NCBI GenBank assembly: GCA_017456685.1
Contig: JAFTIV010000201.1
Location: forward strand, 1-13,841
Source of the DNA: Clostridia bacterium
Lineage (GTDB): Bacteria > Bacillota > Clostridia > Oscillospirales > CAG-272
Length of the DNA: 13,841 bases
Direction of reading: 5' to 3'
Positions 1,240 through 11,586 of the stretch are shown here, one piece after another. A model generated the notes under the pieces. It was given only the letters and a program-made list of their open reading frames with translations, searched no databases and was not told the origin of the DNA. The position numbers and the translations under genes are program-made. Each line of letters begins with the position of its first letter. The first letter of the stretch is position 1.

Positions 1240-3249
1240 ATGTACGAAAAGAAAAGGAAAAGCTCCGCATACAGAATTCTTGCGGAAATTATATGCCTTG
1301 CACTCGGTGTAGGCTCTGGCGCGCTTGGCGTTTTTTGGGCGCTAAGACAGCCACAGGATTGGCTACTTATTGATATTACCCTTGCGGTTTGTGTAGTCGC
1401 ACTCGGCACCTTTGCGCTTCTTGGCTTTTCTGTTATTGAAAGAAAGCGCCTTGTTCGTCTGCCAAGCGGACCCGTGCTCGGCTCTATTATGTACGATGTT
1501 ATAAACACCGCGCCCGAGCCTGCGCTCATATGCGATGAAAACAAAAAAATCATTTGGTTTAACCGCTATGCTCAGGTTGTTTCGGGGCAAACGGGCTCGC
1601 TTCTTGGCACTCGCTTAAGCGTGCTTATGCCTAACCCCTTACCCGACGAGGGCGACAAGGAGCGCGAGCTTATAACCGTGCTTGGAGACAACACCTACTC
1701 TGTAGATGTCACCAAAATCCGCTCTGACGGAAAAATCTACAATCTGCTTTTGTTCCGCAATATTACTAAGCAGGCGCGACTTGAGCAGTATGTAAAGGAC
1801 GAGGAAAAGGCAATTGCCTATGTTATCGTCGATAACCTTGACGAGCTTACACAGTTCGAGCAGGAGAATTACCGCGAGGCTGCGGCAAAGATTGAAACGA
1901 CCCTTCGTGATTGGGTCGCTGATGTTGACGGAATGATTAAGGAATACGAAAAGGACAAGTATCTTATCCTCTTTAAGAACGAAAACCTTGACCGCTTCGT
2001 GAACGAGAAATTCTCAATTATTGATAAGATTAGAAATCTTAATGTTTCGGGCACCTCTATTCCCCTTACAATCTCTATGGGTGTTTCTAAGGTGCAGGGC
2101 TCACTTGCCGACAAGGAAAAGGCTGCTCATATCGCCCTTGATATGGCGCTTCAGCGCGGTGGTGACCAGGTTGTTGTAAAGTACGATGATAATACCCTGT
2201 TCTTTGGTGGTAAGACAAGCACCATTCACAAGAGAACGAAGGTGCGCGCACGCGTTGCGGCTCACCGCCTTGCGGGCTATATGGCATCTGCCTCAAATGT
2301 TATTATTATGGGACATAAGTTCCCCGACTATGACGCATTCGGTGCGAGCGTTGGTATTGCCCGCCTCGCTATGTTCTGCGGAGTTAAGGTTAATATCGTA
2401 ACCGACCCAAAGAACCCAAATATCAAGCGCTGTCTTAAGCATTTTGAAAGCTTCGATGCCGAATACAAGGGACTTTTCGTTGATGCATCGAGAGGCATGG
2501 ACCTTATCAAGTCCGAAACCCTTCTTGTTATCGTCGATGTAAATAACCCCGATATGTTCGAGTCAATCGACATATATAACAATGTATATAACACGGTTAT
2601 TGTGGACCACCACAGAAAAACCGCCGAGAGCGAGCGTCCCTTGCTCATCGAGTATATCGACCCTGCCTCATCAAGCGCGAGCGAGCTTGTGTCCGAAATG
2701 CTTGAGCAGGCACTCCCACCTCAAACCCTTGAAAGGGTAGAGGCAAATATGCTCCTTGCGGGCATCTCGCTTGATACTAAGCAGTTCACCAAGGGCGCAG
2801 GCACAAAGACCTACGCGGCTGCGGTATATCTTCTTGGAAACAACGCCTCGTACGAGGACATTCAGGACCTATTTAAGACCAGCATAGTTGACTATCGTCA
2901 AATCTCCAAGTTCGGTCAAAAGGTCGAAATTTACAGAAACAGTATGGCTATTGCCGTCAACTTTGAGGTTGGCGACAAGAATGCGGATAGAACCCTTGCT
3001 GCACAGGTTGCGGACAATCTTCTTATGGTTGAAAATGTTTCCGCCTCGTTTGCCCTTATGCAAATTGAGGACACTATTCACATTTCTGCGCGCTCAAACG
3101 GAACTGTCAATGTTCAGCTCATTCTTGAACAGCTCAAGGGTGGCGGACGCTATGACTCTGCGGGCGCACAATTAAAGAGCGCGTCTATTCAGCAGGCTCT
3201 TATGAAGCTTAAGGACGCAATCGACAGCCAAATCAACGCGGAGGGATAA
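1240..3249 (+). CDS. gdpP: GdpP-type cyclic-di-AMP phosphodiesterase (TM-PAS-degenerate GGDEF-DHH-DHHA1)
   Basis: 669 residues, the usual GdpP length and architecture. Two membrane helices (about 13-34 and 42-64) are followed by a PAS-like region (about 84-170), a degenerate GGDEF domain (about 190-305, no GGDEF motif) and DHH-DHHA1 domains. Catalytic motifs are visible: [12 protein letters not shown] (357-368), DVNNPD (~433-438), VDHH (455-458) and GISLDTKQF (~508-516). In GdpP the DHH domain hydrolyses c-di-AMP to pApA on the cytoplasmic side; PAS and GGDEF modulate it. The DHHA1 glycine motif reads GGGRYDSAG, with Arg where family members commonly have His. ATG at 1240 has AGGGAGG at a good distance. 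First gene of an operon with rplI (4-nt gap) and dnaB, a common Firmicute arrangement. Confidence 0.95.
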
Positions 3250-3253
3250 TTTT

Positions 3254-3703
3254 ATGAAGGTTGTATTATTACAGGATGTAAAGGGTCAAGGAAAGGCTAA
3301 CGATGTTATAAATGTGTCCGACGGCTACGCAAGAAACTTCCTTTTCCCAAGAAAATTAGCTATTGTTGCCGATGCAAAGGCGCTTGCCGAGGTTAAGAGC
3401 AAGAAGGAGTCGGCTCAGCATAAACCAGATGTAGAAAGAGCAAACGCAAGGGAGCTTGCGTCCAAGCTAAACGAGGCAAAGGTTGTAATCACAGCCGATG
3501 CGGGCAAGGACGGCAGATTTTACGGTGCTGTCACCTCAAAGGACATTGCCGAGGCGCTCAAGGCACAGCTTAAGCTTGAGGTTGATAAGAGAAAAATCGA
3601 GCTTGATGCTCCCATCAAGGCGTTTGGCACATATATGGTAAGCGTTAAGCTCTATCAAGAGGTATCAGCTAAGCTTACAGTTCAGGTAACGGAGAAGAAA
3701 TAA
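3254..3703 (+). CDS. rplI: 50S ribosomal protein bL9
   Basis: 149 residues, the normal bL9 length. The N-terminal RNA-binding domain carries the family signature: [19 protein letters not shown], then [17 protein letters not shown] charged connecting helix follows (about 40-75, [14 protein letters not shown] onward), then the C-terminal domain with [17 protein letters not shown]. bL9 binds 23S rRNA near the L1 stalk and helps maintain reading frame. It starts 4 nt after gdpP; its TAA overlaps the dnaB ATG (TAATG), so translation is probably coupled. Confidence 0.97.
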
Positions 3704-5073
3704 TGGACGCACTACAAAGAAAGATGCCCTTTTCTCTTGATGCCGTGCAGTCGGTTTTAGGCGCGGTTTTAAGCGACCCTAAAAGGATTGCCGAGGTGTC
3801 GGAGCTTCTAAGGCCTGATGATTTTTATATCGAGGAGCATCAGCGCATTTTCGAGATAATGCTCAATTTCAATATTGAAAATAAGCCCCTCGACCTTGTA
3901 ACAGTTTTAAACGAGCTTGTCAGCCGTGGCGTATATGCCGACCAAGCAGAGGCGCGCTCGTACATAAAGGTGCTTGCAGAGACACTCCCCTCGGCACAAA
4001 ATGCCAAGGACTATGCAAAAATCGTACACGATAAGAGCATTTTAAGAAGGCTTATAGAGGCTGCTGACGACATTCAACGCGCCGCGTTTACCGAGGGCGA
4101 GGAGGTTGCTCACATTGTCGATTTTGCGGAGCAAAAGATTTTTGACATCGCAGGAAATAACGAGCGCCACGATTTTACACACATAAGCACGGTTATTGAG
4201 GATGCGCTTAAGGGACTTAGCCTTCTTAAAAACGGACCTACAGAGGAAACTATCGGTATTCAAACAGGATTTTCCGACCTTGATAAACAGCTTGTCGGTC
4301 TTGGCAAGGGTAACCTTATTATCGTCGGCGCGCGTCCTGGTGTTGGTAAGACCTCATTTGCACTAAATATCGCCACAAGTGTCGCTAAACGCACCAAAAA
4401 GGCTGTTTGCATTTTCTCTCTCGAGATGCAGAACGAGGAGCTTGTAAAGCGTATGCTTTCTGCTGAGGCTATGGTTGACTCACAGAATTTGCGTACAGGT
4501 GCGCTCACTCAAACAGAGTGGGACAATCTTGCAATGACCTCGGCAATCCTTGCTGAAACGGACATTTATGTCGACGATACCTCTGCTATCTCGCTTACCG
4601 CGATGAAGGCAAAGCTTCGCAGAATTAAAAACCTTGGCTTAGTTGTAGTTGACTATCTACAGCTTATGAACCCAGAGAGCCGTAAGGGTAACGAGCAAAG
4701 CCGTGTAAATCAAATCGGCGAAATCTCGCGTGGACTTAAGATTTTGGCTAAGGAGCTTCGCGTACCCGTTATCTGTCTTTCACAGCTTTCTCGTACAAGT
4801 GAGAAGGAAAAGGAAAGAAAGCCTATGCTTAGTGACCTTCGTGAGTCGGGCTCAATTGAGCAGGATGCCGATATGGTTATTTTCCTCTCTCGTGACTACT
4901 ATGGCACCGACCCCGAGAAGAAGAACCTTGTCGATGTTATCGTTGCAAAGAACCGTCACGGCTCAACAGGCACAGTTTCGATGAGCTGGCTCGGTCAATA
5001 CACCAAGTTTTCTACTCTCGATAAGGAAACCGCACTTCGCTTCGGCTTGAATATGCCAAACGAGGAGCACTAA
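3703..5073 (+). CDS. dnaB: Replicative DNA helicase DnaB
   Basis: 456 residues, full length and without an intein. The N-terminal helical domain (about 8-110) carries the typical AVQSVLGAVLSDP and RPDDFYIEEHQRIF segments. A linker helix follows, then the RecA-like ATPase: Walker A GARPGVGKTS (209-218), the FSLEM segment (~238-242), Walker B VVVDYLQLM (314-322) and the DLRESGSIEQDAD motif (378-390). It unwinds DNA at the replication fork as a hexamer and works with primase. Last gene of the housekeeping operon; no closely linked downstream gene, and the next gene has its own promoter. Confidence 0.97.
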   Translation: MDALQRKMPFSLDAVQSVLGAVLSDPKRIAEVSELLRPDDFYIEEHQRIFEIMLNFNIENKPLDLVTVLNELVSRGVYADQAEARSYIKVLAETLPSAQNAKDYAKIVHDKSILRRLIEAADDIQRAAFTEGEEVAHIVDFAEQKIFDIAGNNERHDFTHISTVIEDALKGLSLLKNGPTEETIGIQTGFSDLDKQLVGLGKGNLIIVGARPGVGKTSFALNIATSVAKRTKKAVCIFSLEMQNEELVKRMLSAEAMVDSQNLRTGALTQTEWDNLAMTSAILAETDIYVDDTSAISLTAMKAKLRRIKNLGLVVVDYLQLMNPESRKGNEQSRVNQIGEISRGLKILAKELRVPVICLSQLSRTSEKEKERKPMLSDLRESGSIEQDADMVIFLSRDYYGTDPEKKNLVDVIVAKNRHGSTGTVSMSWLGQYTKFSTLDKETALRFGLNMPNEEH

Positions 5074-5082
5074 AAATAACAA

Positions 5083-5102
5083 AAAGCGCCTTATGGCGCT
5101 TT
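5083..5102. terminator. Hairpin after dnaB (possible terminator)
   Basis: AAAGCGCC (5083-5090), loop TTAT, GGCGCTTT (5095-5102), 10 nt after the dnaB stop. On the plus strand the stem ends in only three T before CCCC, so termination may be weak. On the minus strand the stem is followed by a better T-run. Probably the end of the gdpP-rplI-dnaB transcript. Confidence 0.5.
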
Positions 5103-5213
5103 CCCCATAGGCTAAAAGCTCACAAACCTTGCTCTTAGACGAGCTTTTGGTGCTTAAGCGGCGCAGCTCAACACGTGCAAAAACGCTAAAAAGCAGTTTC
5201 TTTTTTGCGCTTT

Positions 5214-5238: not shown

Positions 5239-5267
5239 TTGAAAACTGCTAATCGCTATGATATAAT
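5239..5267 (+). promoter_or_regulatory. Promoter of the TIR-LRR-CutA operon
   Basis: TTGAAA (5239-5244), 17-nt spacer, TATAAT (5262-5267), with TG at 5259-5260 giving an extended -10. Expected start of transcription is near 5274, leaving a ~24-nt leader with the RBS TAGGAG at 5287-5292. The operon can thus be expressed independently of dnaB. Confidence 0.8.
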
Positions 5268-5297: not shown

Positions 5298-6875
5298 ATG
5301 CCTGTTTTTGAAAATTTTCTAAGTTATCGTAGGCAAGAAACTTTGTTAGAGGTTAAAAACATTTACGACTCCTTAAGGAATAGGGGGTTGTCGGTATTTT
5401 GTGATATTTACACTCTTAACAATGGTAATTTTGATGAAAATTTAATAAAATATATAAACACCTGTACAAATTATATTCTGGTTATTAATAATCGTTCACT
5501 CGATAGGTGTAGTAACGAGGGGGACTGGCTTTATCGCGAAATAAACCAAGCCCTACAAATGAAAAAGAATATAATTATCGTATTCGTTGGTGAAGTCGAT
5601 TTTCACAACTTGCCTTCATCTATATCGGAGCTTCAATATAAAAACGGTCTTAAGTTTGATATAATGTATTACGATGCCTTTGTAGAAGATTTAATTACAA
5701 GGTTTATCGTTCAGCCCGATGATTGGGAGCGTTCTACCTCAAGCGATTTTGTTATAAACGATGGAGAGCTTGTAAGCTATAAAGGCGCCTCGAAAACGAT
5801 AGTTATTCCCGAAGAGGTTGAAAAAATAGGAGCATTTGCCTTTAAGGACAATACTACAATTAGAGAAATCAAGTTTAACGATAAGCTCAAAGAAATAGGC
5901 GAGTCAGCATTTGAAAGGTGTTTTTCGCTTGTTCATATAGAGCTTCCTAAAACGCTTGTAAAGCTTGATAAAAGGGCTTTTGCTCGCTGTTACGGATTAG
6001 TGGGTATTGTTCTTAACGACAATCTAGAAAGCATCGGCGAAGAGTGCTTTGTTTTTTGCACGAGTCTAAAACTGTTCACGCTTAACGAAAAGGCAAAGCA
6101 CATTGACGGCTCAGCGTTCAACGGTTGTGATTTATTAAGTAAAATTTTGGTGGATACAGGCAACACAAGCTATCAATCTATTGACGACATTTTATATAAT
6201 AGCCAAAACAAAGCTCTCGTTAGATGTCCGCCAAATTACCAAAAGCACTTCGTTTTAATGCCCAACGGATACGAAAACATCGGGGTATGCGCGTTTTCAA
6301 AGTGCGTTAATGTTAGCGAAATAATAATTTCTAAAAGTGTGGTTAGCATCGACAAGCTTGCATTTGAGGATTGTAGAGGAGTTTGCTCAATTACTCTTCC
6401 CGACAGCATTAAAAGCGTTGACGCGTCTGCATTTAAAGGATGGAAAAGAAATCAAGAAATCATCGTAAGCGATGCTTTTGATAAAGCCCTTTACAGTCAA
6501 ATTGACAGCTCAATTGAAGAGTATAATCATATTAGCGAGATCGTATCCTCTAAATACATTTTAGTTAAAACGACCTTTGAGGCCGAAACCGAGGCTGTCA
6601 AGCTCGCAAGGGCGTTGCTTGAAAAAAACCTTATCGTGTCGGGGCAAATTTCGAGACTTCGTTCAATATATTCGTGGGATGGTAAAATTTGTGATGAAAA
6701 CGAATTTGAGCTTTCCTGTATAACAAGGGGAGATAAGTATCCTGAAATTGAATTGTTTATAAATTCTCACCACTCGTTTGAGCTTTGTGAGCTTATGACA
6801 ATTCCTATAGAAAATACCCCGCCAAAATTTGGCGAGTGGATCACTAGCTACGTAAATAAAGGAGAGAAAATATGA
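5298..6875 (+). CDS. TIR domain - BspA-type leucine-rich repeats - CutA-like domain protein
   Basis: 525 residues, no signal peptide or membrane helix, so cytoplasmic. Residues 1-~140 are a TIR domain: FLSYRRQ (7-13), LSVFCDIYTL (31-40), ILVINNRS (60-67), then DWLYREINQAL with W77xxxE81, E81 matching the NADase glutamate of catalytic TIRs. About 165-391 holds eight 23-residue BspA-like (LRR_5) repeats in blocks of five and three, pattern IGxxAFxxCxxLxxIxLPxxLxx. Residues 418-517 are a diverged CutA1-like domain (ILVKTTFEAE, IYSWDGKI, HHSFELCEL); the usual AACV is replaced by VSGQ, so its ligand site may differ. Start set by TAGGAG 6 nt upstream. Overlaps the next gene by 4 nt (ATGA). Inference: LRRs sense, TIR consumes NAD+ or makes a signal, CutA oligomerises. 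More AT-rich than its neighbours, suggesting transfer. Domain calls are firm; function is hypothetical. Confidence 0.88.
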   Translation: MPVFENFLSYRRQETLLEVKNIYDSLRNRGLSVFCDIYTLNNGNFDENLIKYINTCTNYILVINNRSLDRCSNEGDWLYREINQALQMKKNIIIVFVGEVDFHNLPSSISELQYKNGLKFDIMYYDAFVEDLITRFIVQPDDWERSTSSDFVINDGELVSYKGASKTIVIPEEVEKIGAFAFKDNTTIREIKFNDKLKEIGESAFERCFSLVHIELPKTLVKLDKRAFARCYGLVGIVLNDNLESIGEECFVFCTSLKLFTLNEKAKHIDGSAFNGCDLLSKILVDTGNTSYQSIDDILYNSQNKALVRCPPNYQKHFVLMPNGYENIGVCAFSKCVNVSEIIISKSVVSIDKLAFEDCRGVCSITLPDSIKSVDASAFKGWKRNQEIIVSDAFDKALYSQIDSSIEEYNHISEIVSSKYILVKTTFEAETEAVKLARALLEKNLIVSGQISRLRSIYSWDGKICDENEFELSCITRGDKYPEIELFINSHHSFELCELMTIPIENTPPKFGEWITSYVNKGEKI

Positions 6876-7474
6876 TAGGTGTCGTTGGTGAAATTTTATT
6901 AAAATATACTTATAATGGCAAAATTTACGAGGAAATTATAGATTTGCATGGTATAGAAGGGTTTGCTCTAAAGGCTAATAGCAAGGTTAAATTCATCGTT
7001 GACAGCATTGATTATATTGAAGATACGATATACGGTGTGGAGCTTTCAAATGGTGACGATTGTTTATATATCAGTGGCAACGAGCCAACGGCTTTTGAAA
7101 TATTAGCCGAAAACATTAGTGGTAGTATGGAGTTGGTGTTTATGTCGAAAAACAAATTTTTAGAAGAAAATTATGCAATAGTTATAACTACGACAAATCA
7201 AGAAAATTCAAAAGAAATAGCAAAGGCTCTAGTTTCAAGCAAATTAGCCGCTTGTGTACAAATGACCGAAATTGATAGTGTGTACGAGTGGAAGGGTGAA
7301 ATTTGTTTTGACAAAGAGGTTTTAATGCTTATTAAAACTAAAGATAATTTATTTGATGAAGTAAAAAGCGAAATCGAAAGGGTGCACAACTACGAACTTC
7401 CTGAAATAATAAAAGTCAAAATTGATGATGGTAATGAGGAGTATTTGAAATGGATATCAAGATTGACCAAATAA
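6872..7474 (+). CDS. Unknown N-terminal domain fused to CutA1 domain
   Basis: 200 residues. Residues 1-~95 form a probably beta-rich domain I do not recognise (VGEILLKYTYNGKIYEEI near the start). Residues ~101-197 are a canonical CutA1 domain: YAIVITTT (101-108), KLAACVQ (114-120), VYEWKGEI (127-134), VHNYELPEII (171-180), YLKWI (191-195). CutA1 proteins are small, very stable trimers linked to divalent-cation tolerance in E. coli; their biochemical role is unsettled. Ordinary CutA1 is ~105-115 residues with no such N-terminal domain. ATG at 6872 overlaps the previous TGA and has AAAGGAG 7 nt upstream. Met91 (7142) could allow a short CutA-only product, with GGAG about 11 nt before it; uncertain. 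Its CutA domain is closer to consensus than that of the TIR protein, so the two are not a simple recent duplication. Confidence 0.85.
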   Translation: MIGVVGEILLKYTYNGKIYEEIIDLHGIEGFALKANSKVKFIVDSIDYIEDTIYGVELSNGDDCLYISGNEPTAFEILAENISGSMELVFMSKNKFLEENYAIVITTTNQENSKEIAKALVSSKLAACVQMTEIDSVYEWKGEICFDKEVLMLIKTKDNLFDEVKSEIERVHNYELPEIIKVKIDDGNEEYLKWISRLTK

Positions 7475-7782
7475 AGAATTTTAAGATTGAAGTGTTCGTG
7501 CCCGTTGACTCAAAAAATGTAGTTTTAGCAGCAATTAGACGGCTAAAAGTAGGTAAAATTGGAAATTACTATAATTGCATTACGATAACTGAAGTAAAAG
7601 CCTCTTGGACAGCAAACGAAAACGCCCACCCATATTTAGGTGAGGCAGGCGAAAACTATGAGGCAGATGAGATCAAAATAGAAACTCGTTGTAAGGCTGA
7701 AGAGCTTGATGAATTAATTATAGCCATCAAAAAGGCTCATCCGTATGAAGAAGTGTGCATAAACATTATACCTTTGCTTTAA
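7450..7782 (+). CDS. Stand-alone NIF3/YqfO insert-type CutA/PII-like protein
   Basis: 110 residues matching the domain inserted in NIF3/YqfO metal-centre proteins (stand-alone versions are grouped, from memory, as COG3323): EVFVP (14-18), GKIGNYYNC (35-43), AHPYLGEAGENYEADE (59-74), IETR (77-80), KKAHPYEE (94-101). The flanking NIF3 metal-binding halves are absent. This domain has the ferredoxin-like PII/CutA fold and forms trimers in known structures. The ATG at 7450 overlaps the previous gene by 25 nt; GAGGAG at 7436-7441, 8 nt upstream, supports this start and suggests coupled translation. Third protein in a row with a CutA/PII-type domain, probably part of the same complex or sensing the same kind of ligand. 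Function unknown. Confidence 0.85.
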   Translation: MDIKIDQIKNFKIEVFVPVDSKNVVLAAIRRLKVGKIGNYYNCITITEVKASWTANENAHPYLGEAGENYEADEIKIETRCKAEELDELIIAIKKAHPYEEVCINIIPLL

Positions 7783-7915
7783 TTGCATATCATTTTAGCC
7801 CTATGGTAAAAAATAAATTCTTAATCTTATATTTATGAACAAGAAAAGCCCACCATATCTCGCGTTTTGCAAGATTTAGAGGACTATGCTTGCCGCGGAC
7901 TAAAAGCCATAAGTG

Positions 7916-7937
7916 AAGCGCCATTTGGCGCTTTTTT
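7916..7937 (+). terminator. Terminator of the TIR-CutA operon
   Basis: AAGCGCC (7916-7922), loop ATTT, GGCGCTT (7927-7933), with the T-run reaching 7937. About 130 nt after the last stop codon. The stem is nearly the same as the hairpin after dnaB at 5083-5102. Confidence 0.75.
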
Positions 7938-7941
7938 GTTT

Positions 7942-8210
7942 GCCTTTTTAATGAAATCCACGCGACGCATTGATTCGTGCCTTTTTAATGAATTGCGGAC
8001 ACAGTCCGCATCAATTGTCGTGTGCACTCTCGTTCGCATATCTAACTAATATGGAACGGAGCGGAACGAGCGAGAATTCATGAGGCATAGCCTCAATTCA
8101 TGCGCCACAGGTGCAATTCATGGAGCGAAGCCAATCCCTCCACCGCATAGCGGTCCACCTCCGCACAAGGCATACCCACAAGGGGCACCTTTCACAAAGG
8201 AGGCGAAGGG
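7942..8210. repeat. Hairpin-mosaic intergenic repeat
   Basis: 7783-8238 has no supported gene; most of it is this composite. A 14-nt direct repeat GCCTTTTTAATGAA occurs at 7942 and 7979. Then small hairpins follow: GCGGAC/GTCCGC (7995-8009), GAGGC/GCCTC (8082-8094), GCGCC/GGTGC with one G-T pair (8102-8114), and CCGC/GCGG (8143-8153). The middle units repeat every 20 nt with the linker AATTCATG. The right part (AATCCCTCC-hairpin-CCACCTCC at 8133-8162, then a CACCTTT/AAAGGAGG stem at ~8186-8203) shares its layout with 13437-13482. This resembles dispersed palindromic repeats of gut Clostridia, but that is recollection; genome copy number is needed. Confidence 0.6.
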
Positions 8211-8238
8211 AAAATTAATTGCAAAATGGTCTGCTCAA

Positions 8239-9012
8239 CTATTTCACGCGCACGATTTCTGCGGGTCTTGCGACATTTACATCAACCGAGGCGTAGCCGT
8301 GGCGGTCAAGTGCGTCCCTGTGTGCGCTAAACGCGATTTCAGGGGCGTTGTTTTCCTTGCTCAGGTGGGCAAGGGTTATGCTTTCAGTGCCATTTTTAGC
8401 AAGGAATAAGGAGAGCTCTGCGCTGTCCTCATTTGCCAAGTGACCTGTGTCTGCTAAAATTCTATGCTTTAAAAACTCGGGATACGGTCCTGCCACAAGC
8501 AAAAACTTGTCGTGATTTGACTCAATAATTGCGGTTTTACAGCCACAGAGTGAGCATTTTATCTCCTCGGTGATATGCCCCATATCCGTTGCTATGCCAA
8601 GCCTCTCGCCCTCACACTCGATTATATAGCCGACATTCTGTGCGCTATCGTGAGGAATTTCGAACGAGCGAAGCGATAAAGACCCAACCCTGTGCTCATA
8701 ATGCACCTCGTGGCTTATCGCAAAGCGAGAGGTAAACGAGCCATTATAAGCCACCCTTGTGTACGATGGGGCGGTTATGTGTATCGGGATTTGATATTTC
8801 TTTGAAATAATTTCAAGACCGCTCGTGTGGTCGCTATGCTCGTGAGTTACAAAAATCGCGCTTATGCGCCTTAGCGAGCTTCCTATAAGCGACAACGCCT
8901 TCTCAATCGCGCCCGCACTCTTACCCGCATCTATTAAAATCTCGTCCTCGCCATTTTTTATGTAAATGCAATTTCCGCTTGAGCCCGAGAAAAGCGTGTA
9001 TGCCTCTATCAT
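8239..9012 (-). CDS. walJ: WalJ/YycJ-family MBL-fold metallo-hydrolase
   Basis: 257 residues, the usual family length. Metallo-beta-lactamase fold: FSGSSGNCIYI (8-18), LIDAG (26-30), the metal motif THEHSDH (56-62), EIPHDSAQNVGY, ATDMGH and the family-typical ESNHD and GHLANEDSA segments. YycJ/WalJ is conserved in Firmicutes and has been linked to cell-wall/division coordination (WalRK context) and to nuclease activity; here it is not next to walRK. RBS AGAAGGGA lies about 6 nt before the ATG at 9012. Transcribed toward the TIR operon; no clear terminator after its TAG, and the hairpin mosaic begins within ~30 nt. Confidence 0.9.
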   Translation of the reverse strand: MIEAYTLFSGSSGNCIYIKNGEDEILIDAGKSAGAIEKALSLIGSSLRRISAIFVTHEHSDHTSGLEIISKKYQIPIHITAPSYTRVAYNGSFTSRFAISHEVHYEHRVGSLSLRSFEIPHDSAQNVGYIIECEGERLGIATDMGHITEEIKCSLCGCKTAIIESNHDKFLLVAGPYPEFLKHRILADTGHLANEDSAELSLFLAKNGTESITLAHLSKENNAPEIAFSAHRDALDRHGYASVDVNVARPAEIVRVK

Positions 9013-9232: not shown

Positions 9233-10225
9233 ATGAAAAAGTACATTGCATTCATTGTGGCTCTCGTACTTCTCGTAGCTGCTATTTTTGTTCCCCAAGC
9301 ATCTGCTAACGGTGTTAAGGCAGGCAAGGGCGATGGCGATAGTGACGAGTTCGAGGACCTCAAGGACCTTCAAAAGATGGACCTTGATGATGGCGCTACC
9401 TTCTACATCTCTGGCGAAAGAAGCTTTAGCATCTCGTCAAGCCAAAAGGGCTCACAAAGCTCAAGCAAGGGAGTTGTTGTATTCAATGCTGAGTGGTATG
9501 TGACCAGCAAGGCACAATACATCGTTTGTGATGCAACAATTTATGAGTTCTCATCAATGGAGGACGACAACTACGACATCGAATATTCTGGCGCTGAGGC
9601 ATCAAGCATTTCATTTGAAATCTTTGAAAGCTCAAAGAAGGAGCTTATTAGAATTAACAAATTCGATGCTGTTCCAACCGTGTACGACCAAACCGCTGTT
9701 GCTCTTTACCTTGGCAAATGGGTAGAGGACGATGCTGATTTTATTGGCATTGCTGATTTGGCTTGGGATTACGCTGACCTTGTTGAGGAGGCTACGGGTC
9801 TTGCTATGGAGGTTCTCTACACCGACGAGGACGACTGGGATGAGAGCGGAAAGAAGCTCACCCTTGACGAGGACTATGTTGAAGAGGTTGCAATCGAGCT
9901 TCTCGGCTCTGTAAACGAGGATGACGACGAGTACAAGGGCAAGGTTCAGCTAAGCTTCGCTGACAAGGACGCACCAAAGATTTCCGTTTCTGTAAAGGCT
10001 AACTTCGCCGACGAGGACGAAAGCGGAAAGGTTGACTACAAGAGTGGTGCTAACTACGCAATCTACGAGCTCGTTTTGACAAATGTTGATAACACCGATA
10101 TCGACGAAAGCATTGACAAAAAGGACATCATCACCGAAAAGGAAATGAAAAAGGCTCTCAAGAACACTGGTCTTTGGGACAAATACATTGATGTAGATGA
10201 CGACGAAGAGGAGGATGATGAATAA
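9233..10225 (+). CDS. Acidic secreted or surface protein, unknown function
   Basis: 330 residues. An N-terminal signal peptide is plain: [19 protein letters not shown], then QASANG with a likely signal peptidase I site after ASA (~residue 25); there is no lipobox cysteine. The mature part is rich in Asp and Glu, has a Ser-rich stretch (about 66-79, [14 protein letters not shown]) and ends in a nearly pure acidic tail ([11 protein letters not shown]). No enzyme motif recognised; the acidic tail might bind cations. The ATG at 9233 has GGGAGG ending 13 nt upstream, unusually far, yet no nearer ATG, GTG or TTG start is in frame and the signal peptide supports this one. The TAA overlaps the next ATG by one base (TAATG), so the two products probably act together at the envelope. 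Confidence 0.85.
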
Positions 10226-11586
10226 TGACTAAAATTAAAGGCTTCTTGCTTAGATTTAGAAAAACAATTACATCCTTCGCTATGGCAGGCACATGTGCTG
10301 TTGCTATCGTGCTCACCGCGTTCTGCTACATATTCGGTATGTTCGAGCAAACCGGCTCGGGTGTTACAATATTTGATTCCGTTGGAAAGATTTTTGATAT
10401 TTTCCAAGGCATCTCACTCGCATCAGTATCAAGCGCACTCTTTGGCGTGCTTCACATTCTTGTGCTTGTTGCCTTCGTTAAGGCAATTATCTCTGTTGTT
10501 AAAAGCGCTATAAAGCTTGTAAAGCTCTTTATCGCAAGGGACGAGGCTGAAACGGCTCGCTATGCTTCTCTTATAAGAGAAGGCCTTCTTAGCGTTTTGA
10601 CAGGCTATGCACTCTTTGCAATCCTTGGCAAAACACTTTTGGGTGTAAATCTCACAACCTACGCTGTTGTAACTCTTGTATTCCTTATCATTGCATATGT
10701 TGTTTCAACTGTATCTGCAATGTTCGCAAACGACGATGGCTTGCCATCACTCTCATACATCATCGTTGAGAGCGCAAGACTTATAGTTGCTCCTATTCTC
10801 ACCTGCGTTATCTTTAAGTACATCGTTCAAAGCAATCTTATCTTGAACGCATTCAATAAGATTATGGCAGTTATCTTCTCACTTGAGAACCTCACCGATA
10901 AGGATGTCGCTGACGAGCTTCTCTTTGTAAGAAATATCTACTACGCGGTTGGTGAAGCAATTCTTGCTATCATTCTTACAGTTCTCTTTATTAAGCTTTG
11001 CATCTCCGTTATTGAGAGCCTCTCAAAGGAGTCACCCTCATATGTTGATTTCAAGGCTAAGCCAGCAAATGGCTTTAAGGGAATTGCTATCGTTTCCTGC
11101 GTGTTCATCGTTATTAGATTTGTAGTTAATAACTTCATCTTCGAAAAGCATATGACCGACGAGGTTGGCGCAATGATTCAAAACCTCTTCGCTTCATCAA
11201 GAAACGACCTTATTCCACTCGCGCTTATCGGCTTTGCAGGCTTCGCACTTCTCAAGGTTGCATTCGATAAGGACGCAACTCCTGACTCCTACTACGAGTC
11301 ACTCTATGTGACCGAGCCAGAGGCTGAGGAAGCACCCGTTGCCGAGGAAGCTCCTGTTGACGAGCAAGCTCCTGTTGCTGAGGAAGCTCCCGTTGCCGAG
11401 GAAGCTCCTGTTGCTGAAGAGGCACCTGTAGCAGAAGAAGCTCCCGTTGCAGAAGAGGCACCTGTTGCCGAGGAAGCTCCTGTAGCTGAGGAAGCACCCG
11501 CACCTGCTCCAAAGTTCTGCCCTAATTGTGGTACACCTGTAACAGCAGGCGCAAAATTCTGCGCATCCTGCGGAAGCAAGCTATAA
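10225..11586 (+). CDS. Polytopic membrane protein with PAVEE-type repeat linker and C-terminal zinc ribbon
   Basis: 453 residues. About eight hydrophobic segments span residues ~15-360 (e.g. [77 protein letters not shown]). A low-complexity linker of nine six-residue APVAEE-like units (about 370-423) follows, then a double-CxxC zinc ribbon at the extreme C-terminus ([20 protein letters not shown]). Such terminal zinc ribbons are common in Firmicute membrane proteins and are presumed cytoplasmic. No transporter family recognised. It starts at the one-base overlap with the secreted-protein gene, with GAGGAGG just upstream; a strong terminator follows. A role with its partner in envelope biology is inference. 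Confidence 0.85.
11332..11493 (+). repeat. Coding 18-bp repeat (nine APVAEE-type units)
   Basis: Nine consecutive 18-bp units encoding APVAEE, the second changed to APVDEQ, then APAPAP. Units differ by synonymous codons (GCT/GCA, CCT/CCC, GAG/GAA), so the array is not freshly expanded although length variation between strains is likely. It forms an acidic Pro-rich spacer before the zinc ribbon. Confidence 0.9.

Follow-up and report, generated by a model that had tools for sequence, protein, structure and literature searches.

The locus described here raises the question of what a TIR domain, a set of leucine-rich repeats (LRRs), and proteins of the CutA and PII-like families might do together in a single operon. 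It occupies positions 5298-7782 of contig JAFTIV010000201.1 from a Clostridia bacterium of the order Oscillospirales (GenBank assembly GCA_017456685.1). The whole of this contig, 13,841 nucleotides, was analyzed and is referred to below as the window. The genome is a draft (1.43 Mb, 208 contigs, 63.7% complete), and thus parts encoded elsewhere in it may be missing. The table of open reading frames displays three overlapping genes on the plus strand, exactly where they had been placed by an original prediction made from the sequence alone. The first, P1 (5298-6875, 525 residues), carries a TIR domain, eight BspA-type LRRs, and a divergent CutA1 domain. The second, P2 (6872-7474, 200 residues), is composed of an N-terminal region, here called domain X, and a canonical CutA1 domain. 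The third, P3 (7450-7782, 110 residues), is a free-standing PII-like protein of the YqfO/NIF3-insert type. These assignments, which were also those of the original prediction, are upheld by Pfam and by sequence matches to the Protein Data Bank (PDB). P1 and P2 overlap by 4 nucleotides (ATGA) and P2 and P3 by 25, and by eye a Shine-Dalgarno-like sequence lies ahead of each of the three starts. The combination of a TIR-LRR-CutA protein with these partners is apparently new, built from known parts and seen at one locus.

The TIR domain of P1

The TIR domain is encoded by positions 5298-5741 on the plus strand. It matches Pfam TIR_2 with an E-value of 2e-8 and 35.2 bits (cut-off 28), and in the PDB it aligns over its whole length with SARM1 (8.6e-15). 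At E ≤ 0.001 its PDB relatives are exclusively the SARM1/TIR-1 NAD hydrolases. As had been anticipated in the original prediction, E81, which lies in the P1 sequence DWLYREI, corresponds to the glutamate of SARM1 DWVHKEI, a residue that we take to be the catalytic one. Indeed, all 18 of the TIR domains aligned, that of P1 and those of 17 relatives selected from 29 loci, share D76, W77, and E81 without exception. By family, the P1 TIR would be of the NADase type, and hydrolysis of NAD+ may be expected of it.

Relatives of the TIR domain (E ≤ 0.001) are present in 29 of 395 family genomes including this one (28 of 394 others). The best is only 42% identical, and thus no close ortholog of P1 was seen. 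There are 43 other TIR places, 29 of which were examined as loci, and 27 of these 29 re-matched a TIR domain at 1e-4. LRRs like those of P1 accompany the TIR in four of the 27, and CutA in 0 of 27 within the stretch examined, which cuts some long frames. Two proteins, L124:4993-7566 and L125:4517-6817 (857 and 766 residues), were identified by Pfam as TIR_2 plus LRR_5. They contain no CutA domain over threshold, and there is no CutA- or YqfO-type gene in the 14-kb stretches examined.

The TIR family represented by loci L092-L120, many members of which start with FISYRRxGG, displays very varied C-termini. By reading, these include LRRs, RCC1-like repeats, TPR-like segments, membrane helices, and methyltransferase-like parts, with two of the LRR cases checked by Pfam. 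No relative of TIR domains of this type was found in viral contigs. In addition, a member of the genus (G956) encodes near its dnaB site (L075 1-790) what reads as a TIR-like domain (FLCYRGEG...) followed by a methyltransferase-like part, and L093 and L098 appear by reading to be similar in make-up.

The leucine-rich repeats and CutA domains of P1 and P2

The repeats of P1 (5790-6437, plus strand) match Pfam LRR_5 with an E-value of 6.5e-40. There are 12 Ala-Phe or Cys-Phe pairs in the protein, eight of which are in register at residues 181, 204, 227, 250, 273, 332, 355, and 378, with a spacing of 23 residues except for one step of 59. The earlier count of eight BspA-type LRRs therefore stands.

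The C-terminus of P1 (6552-6851, plus strand) matches the CutA1 family, PF03091, at 4.1e-22 and 78.3 bits, and that of P2 (residues 103-196) at 4.1e-34 and 116.8 bits, the cut-off being 22.4 in both cases. The two domains differ in character. P2 retains the canonical LAAC and HxYExPE motifs, although its score against the NCBIfam equivalog model, 109.9, falls under the cut-off of 120. In P1, LIVS replaces LAAC, and a cysteine replaces the proline of HxYExP. The P1 domain would more likely be a form that binds a partner or serves a structural role than a CutA1 of the ordinary kind. The best Foldseek match to the P2 CutA1 model is 1uku (E 7.2e-9), and the modelled CutA domains of both proteins match the CutA fold, the models themselves having been built with CutA rows. 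A tree built from 36 CutA domains does not join P1 with P2, and the position of P1 is unsure because its branch, at 2.25 changes per column, is very long. A recent tandem duplication as the source of the two domains was considered; the tree lends it no support, the placement of so long a branch being unsure.

Domain X of P2 (6872-7165, plus strand) contains about eight predicted strands. It has no Pfam match over cut-off and nothing below E 0.4 among the PDB sequences, and its fold is not established, given that the predicted local distance difference test (pLDDT) values of its model range from 37 to 56 in blocks of ten. A candidate relative at L123 1117-2586 (genome G093) is 38% identical over 56 residues with an E-value of 8.6e-4 per genome, and was set aside as a match at the level of chance. 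It is the only other match to domain X in 394 genomes, in a gene that by reading looks like phage baseplate J.

The YqfO-type protein P3

The sole Pfam match of P3 is a sub-threshold one to CutA1 (18.9 bits, cut-off 22.4). Residues 12-109/110 align with the PII-like insert of Bacillus cereus YqfO, 2gx8 (6e-14), and with that of Staphylococcus aureus SA1388 (5e-5). The SA1388 insert, in the available text on that protein, forms trimeric lids (PMC1779786). A protein of similar length from another genome of the order is 46% identical to P3 over 99 residues. No NIF3 match was found in P3 up to an E-value of 1, and the flanking NIF3 domains of DUF34/NIF3 are thus lacking. P3 fits the free-standing YqfO proteins (COG3323-type) by its YqfO-insert domain alone, on the basis of the matches to 2gx8 and to another short copy. 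Taken together, the sequence matches and the CutA fold models agree with the trimer-family character that had been suggested for the three CutA/PII-type domains of the cassette.

An origin of P3 from a NIF3 protein of the host was also considered and is unsupported, for within its own genome P3 matches nothing but itself. In the genus, the strong NIF3 matches lie in frames of ~243-278 residues, which have no space for the insert. A weaker NIF3 match in the genome itself (G000:C14:15132-15806) lies in a frame of 601 residues, as compared with about 224-295 for the type in the genus. Distant matches to P3 occur in 14 plasmid records and three phage records, and in the two plasmid neighborhoods inspected there was no TIR annotation. 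Among the weak CutA1 matches in other genomes of the order, YqfO-type domains end longer frames with another N-terminal part at L015 850-1653 and L023 691-1647, and may represent further fusions of this PII-like domain. The N-terminal parts presumably resemble YaiI/DUF188-type (L015) and LOG-type (L023) proteins.

Probable acquisition of the cassette

The three genes stand out from their surroundings in base composition. In windows of 500 bases the G+C content of the cassette is 32-39%, as compared with 46-51% for the adjoining genes. Third-position G+C is 0.27-0.40 in the cassette, 0.49 in rplI and dnaB, and 0.54 in the metallo-β-lactamase-fold gene on the far side. In G961, the nearest relative by dnaB (79% identity; 78% for the lactamase-fold gene), the site is empty, with only 32 bp and, by eye, a single hairpin between the two genes. 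In the window there is one hairpin on each side of the cassette, at 5081-5104 after dnaB and at 7915-7934 (plus strand) after P3, and the two are 89% alike over 19 nucleotides. The AT-richness of the cassette and its position between genes that are 32 bp apart in G961 argue that it was probably acquired as a unit, by horizontal gain to judge from composition and gene order.

The genus includes 28 other genomes, and in 14 of them the stretch following dnaB was compared. P1, P2, and P3 were matched in none of the 14 at E ≤ 0.001. Only in G961 are the dnaB and lactamase-fold genes side by side, so that a single genome underlies the empty site. G027 has its lactamase-fold gene ~3.6 kb farther on, and the remaining stretches have other genes after dnaB or end early.

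A prophage or plasmid origin was looked for and not adopted. Searches with P1 gave 26 plasmid records and 19 phage records. At no place was 80% of the query covered, and most of the listed rows fall within the LRR region. The DNA of the cassette has no near match in plasmids. No relative was found in viral contigs by the P1 query, by two gene patterns, or by two TIR alignments. In PHROGs, P1 has two matches in its LRR region, P2 has one weak match in its CutA region, and P3 has none.

Rarity of the domains and of their combination

CutA1 is rare around this genome. When counted as PF03091 at E ≤ 0.001, with the present genome included and with overlapping taxon sets, it is found in one of 29 genomes in the genus, four of 196 in the family, 20 of 394 in the order, and 35 of 398 in the phylum. 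Outside its own genome the family count is three of 195. The 19 other matching genomes of the order comprise three with a full-length CutA1 and 16 with weak matches, 15 of which also match P3 and most of which are short YqfO-type frames. P3-type genes are undercounted in these figures because PF03091 misses P3 itself. Relatives of P3 were found in one of 127 family genomes, this one, and in none of the 126 others. In the genus, family, order, and phylum sets P1 is the only CutA1 match within an open frame longer than 376 residues. That relatives of CutA1 and P3 are so rare in the family, and yet three such domains share one operon, argues for a joint function.

The neighborhoods of six canonical CutA1 genes, three from the family and three from the order, contain no TIR. 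At E ≤ 1e-4, 40 TIR, 31 P3-type, and 59 CutA-type loci were collected, with some overlap, most extending only 1.5 kb to either side; a TIR domain occurs together with CutA or P3 in only three of them, each of which is a part of the window. Genome contigs gave no match to an exact-codon pattern in which a YqfO-type gene follows CutA. A pattern for LRRs followed by CutA retrieved seven stretches, five of them located at canonical CutA1 genes and the other two lacking any CutA gene; none is a fusion. Note that both patterns match the window, their sole positive control, and that their sensitivity to diverged relatives may be low.

Comparison with known systems

The domain models of known TIR defence systems, among them Thoeris and CBASS TIR-SAVED, have the TIR domain in common with P1 and match only its TIR stretch. 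PADLOC returned three weak matches, the best at 3.9e-6, all on that stretch. The ThsB model of Thoeris matches P1 residues 7-93 only (E 7.9e-5), and no ThsA-like match was found among the nine window proteins scanned, the rest of the genome not having been searched for ThsA. The TIR-SAVED model covers residues 6-64 only, and the nine window proteins scanned include no match to SAVED, STING, or CD-NTase. The TIR models of NCBIfam score far under their cut-offs (ThcB4, 21.4 bits versus 220). P1 has no NTPase match up to an E-value of 1, and in this it differs from the NLR/STAND (TIR-NB-LRR) proteins. The SARM1/TIR-1 NAD hydrolases share the TIR domain and its aligned glutamate, and P1 differs from them by the LRRs and CutA beside its TIR.

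Proteins such as L124 and L125 share with P1 an N-terminal TIR_2 domain and a C-terminal LRR_5 array and differ in having no CutA, and thus TIR-LRR is a known kind of protein. In the portion of one account at hand, TIR-NB and TIR-LRR are named together for two bacterial species (PMC7145615). Free-standing YqfO-type proteins have likewise been described in the available sections of the literature (PMC8469502), one of which, YqfO03 of Pseudomonas syringae, is 103 residues long (PMC6321441). P3 resembles these proteins (COG3323-type, DUF34 subgroups D and E, YqfO03) in being a single YqfO-insert domain without NIF3. Unlike P3, none of the other YqfO-type genes compared lies beside a TIR gene in the stretch examined. 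With respect to ordinary CutA1, P2 adds domain X, whereas the P1 copy is degenerate and fused to TIR-LRR. The original prediction knew of no described system with this set. In keeping with this, the literature searched, as searchable text that lacks many journals, yielded no bacterial set joining TIR with CutA or a PII-like protein, and CutA does not occur as a word in the main text, so far as available, of two TIR surveys (PMC7075850, PMC13142454).

The closest functional parallel found is fungal, namely the het-B locus of Podospora anserina, for which the following is taken from the accessible parts of one paper (PMC10890737). The BH protein is composed of a HET domain, which is TIR-related, a HAD domain, and a lectin fold, and BP, the product of the adjacent gene, is a small PII-like protein. 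Together they determine incompatibility cell death. In Pezizomycotina, 89 PII-like genes, about 5% of them, directly adjoin HET genes, and the best matches outside those fungal proteins are PII-like proteins of gammaproteobacteria, particularly of the Pseudomonas order (PMC10890737). The cassette is similar in having an N-terminal TIR-related death domain, a C-terminal recognition module, and an adjacent gene for a small PII-like protein, which in het-B determines activation. It differs in that het-B is fungal, that HET is not TIR proper, that a lectin fold stands in place of LRRs, that the fungal effector lacks a fused CutA, and that it has one PII-like partner rather than two. P1 itself has no HET (PF06985) or lectin match up to an E-value of 1.

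Operon signals and surroundings

An extended -10 promoter-like site, TTGAAA-17-TATAAT with TG (5239-5267, plus strand), agrees with the consensus at 11 of 12 positions. It is the best in the region and ends 30 nucleotides upstream of the P1 start. As a class, promoter-like sites are hardly enriched (12 versus a shuffle mean of 10.0, sd 2.7), and therefore only the position of the best site supports a promoter for P1. Terminator-like sites number nine in the region versus a shuffle mean of 3.1, and both the hairpin at 7915-7934, followed by a T-run, and that at 5081-5104 are of this kind. The promoter and terminator proposed for the operon would be the site ahead of P1 and the hairpin after P3.

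The cassette lies between dnaB (3703-5073) and a convergent metallo-β-lactamase-fold gene (8239-9012, minus strand). The near neighbors gdpP, dnaB, and the lactamase-fold gene were identified by Pfam; another is, from its sequence, presumably rplI. Upstream of rplI-dnaB is a GdpP-type cyclic di-AMP (c-di-AMP) phosphodiesterase (1240-3249; GGDEF_GdpP, DHH, DHHA1). c-di-AMP is a ligand of some PII-like proteins, but gdpP-rplI-dnaB is a gene order often met in Bacillota, and the nearness of gdpP to the cassette is therefore probably due to chance. A distant match of the lactamase-fold gene to the anti-Pycsar family Apyc1 falls well below the cut-off (17.7 bits versus 50) and probably reflects a shared fold only. 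The intergenic region between the cassette and that gene (7935-8238) contains short palindromes, and similar pieces elsewhere in the genome are short and weak. Farther on (9233-11586) are two adjacent genes, one for an acidic protein that is probably secreted and the other for a membrane protein that has a run of VAEEAP repeats and a C-terminal zinc ribbon, with no other Pfam family over cut-off in either. The window contains no tRNA and no non-coding RNA at the gathering threshold.

A possible function for the cassette

The reading that we favor, with confidence somewhat short of even, is that of an acquired cassette encoding a cytoplasmic TIR effector whose oligomeric state would be set by CutA/PII-type trimers. 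The degenerate CutA of P1 and the canonical CutA1 of P2 might form homo- or hetero-trimers that either hold the TIR domains apart or bring them together. P3 or P2 could read a small ligand, possibly an adenine nucleotide or else a product of the TIR domain, for instance ADP-ribose, and the LRRs of P1 would bind a protein partner or trigger. Upon triggering, the clustered TIR domains would cleave NAD+ by means of E81, leading to arrest or death of the cell. A more pointed version, in which the cassette is a bacterial counterpart of the HET/PII-like pair and a TIR death effector is gated by PII/CutA trimers reading an adenine nucleotide or a TIR product, is a possibility that we hold more loosely. 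The original prediction had proposed an NLR/TLR-like immune or stress module of sensing LRRs, an acting TIR, and trimers that assemble or gate it, and this interpretation finds support in part.

Several points weigh against such an effector. No result obtained here points to phage defence. The defence island or prophage hotspot envisaged in the original prediction is not visible, the cassette being located between housekeeping-type genes with no defence genes seen beside it. That prediction had also named a failure of the genes to co-occur in other genomes as counting against it, and no second copy of the set, or of the LRR-CutA fusion, was found in any other genome searched by samples or strict patterns; the "system" therefore rests on one locus in a draft genome. 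Relatives of the TIR domain are commonly without CutA or PII-type neighbors in the stretch examined, so that the TIR family needs no such partners in general. The P1 TIR lacks the GG that follows SYRR in most relatives. The proposed assignments hold by profile for TIR and CutA and by fold for CutA, but the TIR fold was not recovered (pLDDT 29-57 for residues 1-140, in a model made without aligned TIR rows). Finally, P3 and fungal BP are likened by description, and direct binding of BH to BP was itself not shown in het-B, according to the text available (PMC10890737).

Four other explanations were weighed. It is unlikely, in our estimation, that the cassette is a poison-antidote unit in which the P1 TIR toxin is capped at its CutA domain by P2 and P3, loss or titration of these proteins by an invader frees the TIR, and the LRRs tether rather than sense. 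Such a scheme would suit an acquired cassette with small, overlapping downstream genes, perhaps translationally coupled, whose products have the fold of the P1 C-terminal domain. Unlike most antitoxins, however, P2 and P3 come from widespread families of their own, and P1 precedes its partners.

Also improbable, and to a like degree, is a signalling or metabolic-sensing unit without NADase killing, in which the TIR and LRRs serve as a scaffold and the CutA/PII trimers act as sensors of metal or nucleotide status. The very varied C-termini of the TIR relatives would be compatible with this, and CutA1 and the YqfO domain are discussed, in the sections at hand, in connection with tolerance of metals, the carrying of small molecules, or regulation (PMC8469502). 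The intact catalytic glutamate and D-W surroundings of P1 speak for an enzyme instead, a point softened by the fact that, in the available text, the TIR glutamate does not always accompany reported activity (PMC7075850).

Less probable again is a lineage-specific coincidence, with the TIR-LRR and CutA/YqfO genes acquired separately and not functioning together, and with the fusion to CutA arising as a rare accident. The failure to find a second copy fits such a history, as does the tree, which does not resolve the P1 and P2 CutA domains as sisters and gives P1 a very long branch. Both junctions overlap, however, the low G+C content is common to all three genes, and none of their reading frames is broken. 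It is in addition unlikely that three domains of the PII superfamily, every one of them rare in the family, met in one operon by accident. An action on a eukaryotic host, which the accessible part of one survey mentions for certain TIR domains from pathogenic microbes (PMC7075850), is very improbable here, since no secretion gene was recognized among the window proteins scanned (signal peptides were not searched for) and the CutA/PII partners would have no place in it.

CutA1 and the YqfO insert domain are both widespread. Even so, their ligands and functions are poorly defined, to judge from the available portion of one account (PMC8469502). By tying both to a TIR domain with an intact glutamate, the cassette would offer a direct read-out, in the form of NAD+ loss and growth arrest, of what the trimers sense. 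If the effector reading is true, then together with het-B it would suggest that a partnership between TIR-like death domains and PII-like trimers emerged, or was retained, across kingdoms.

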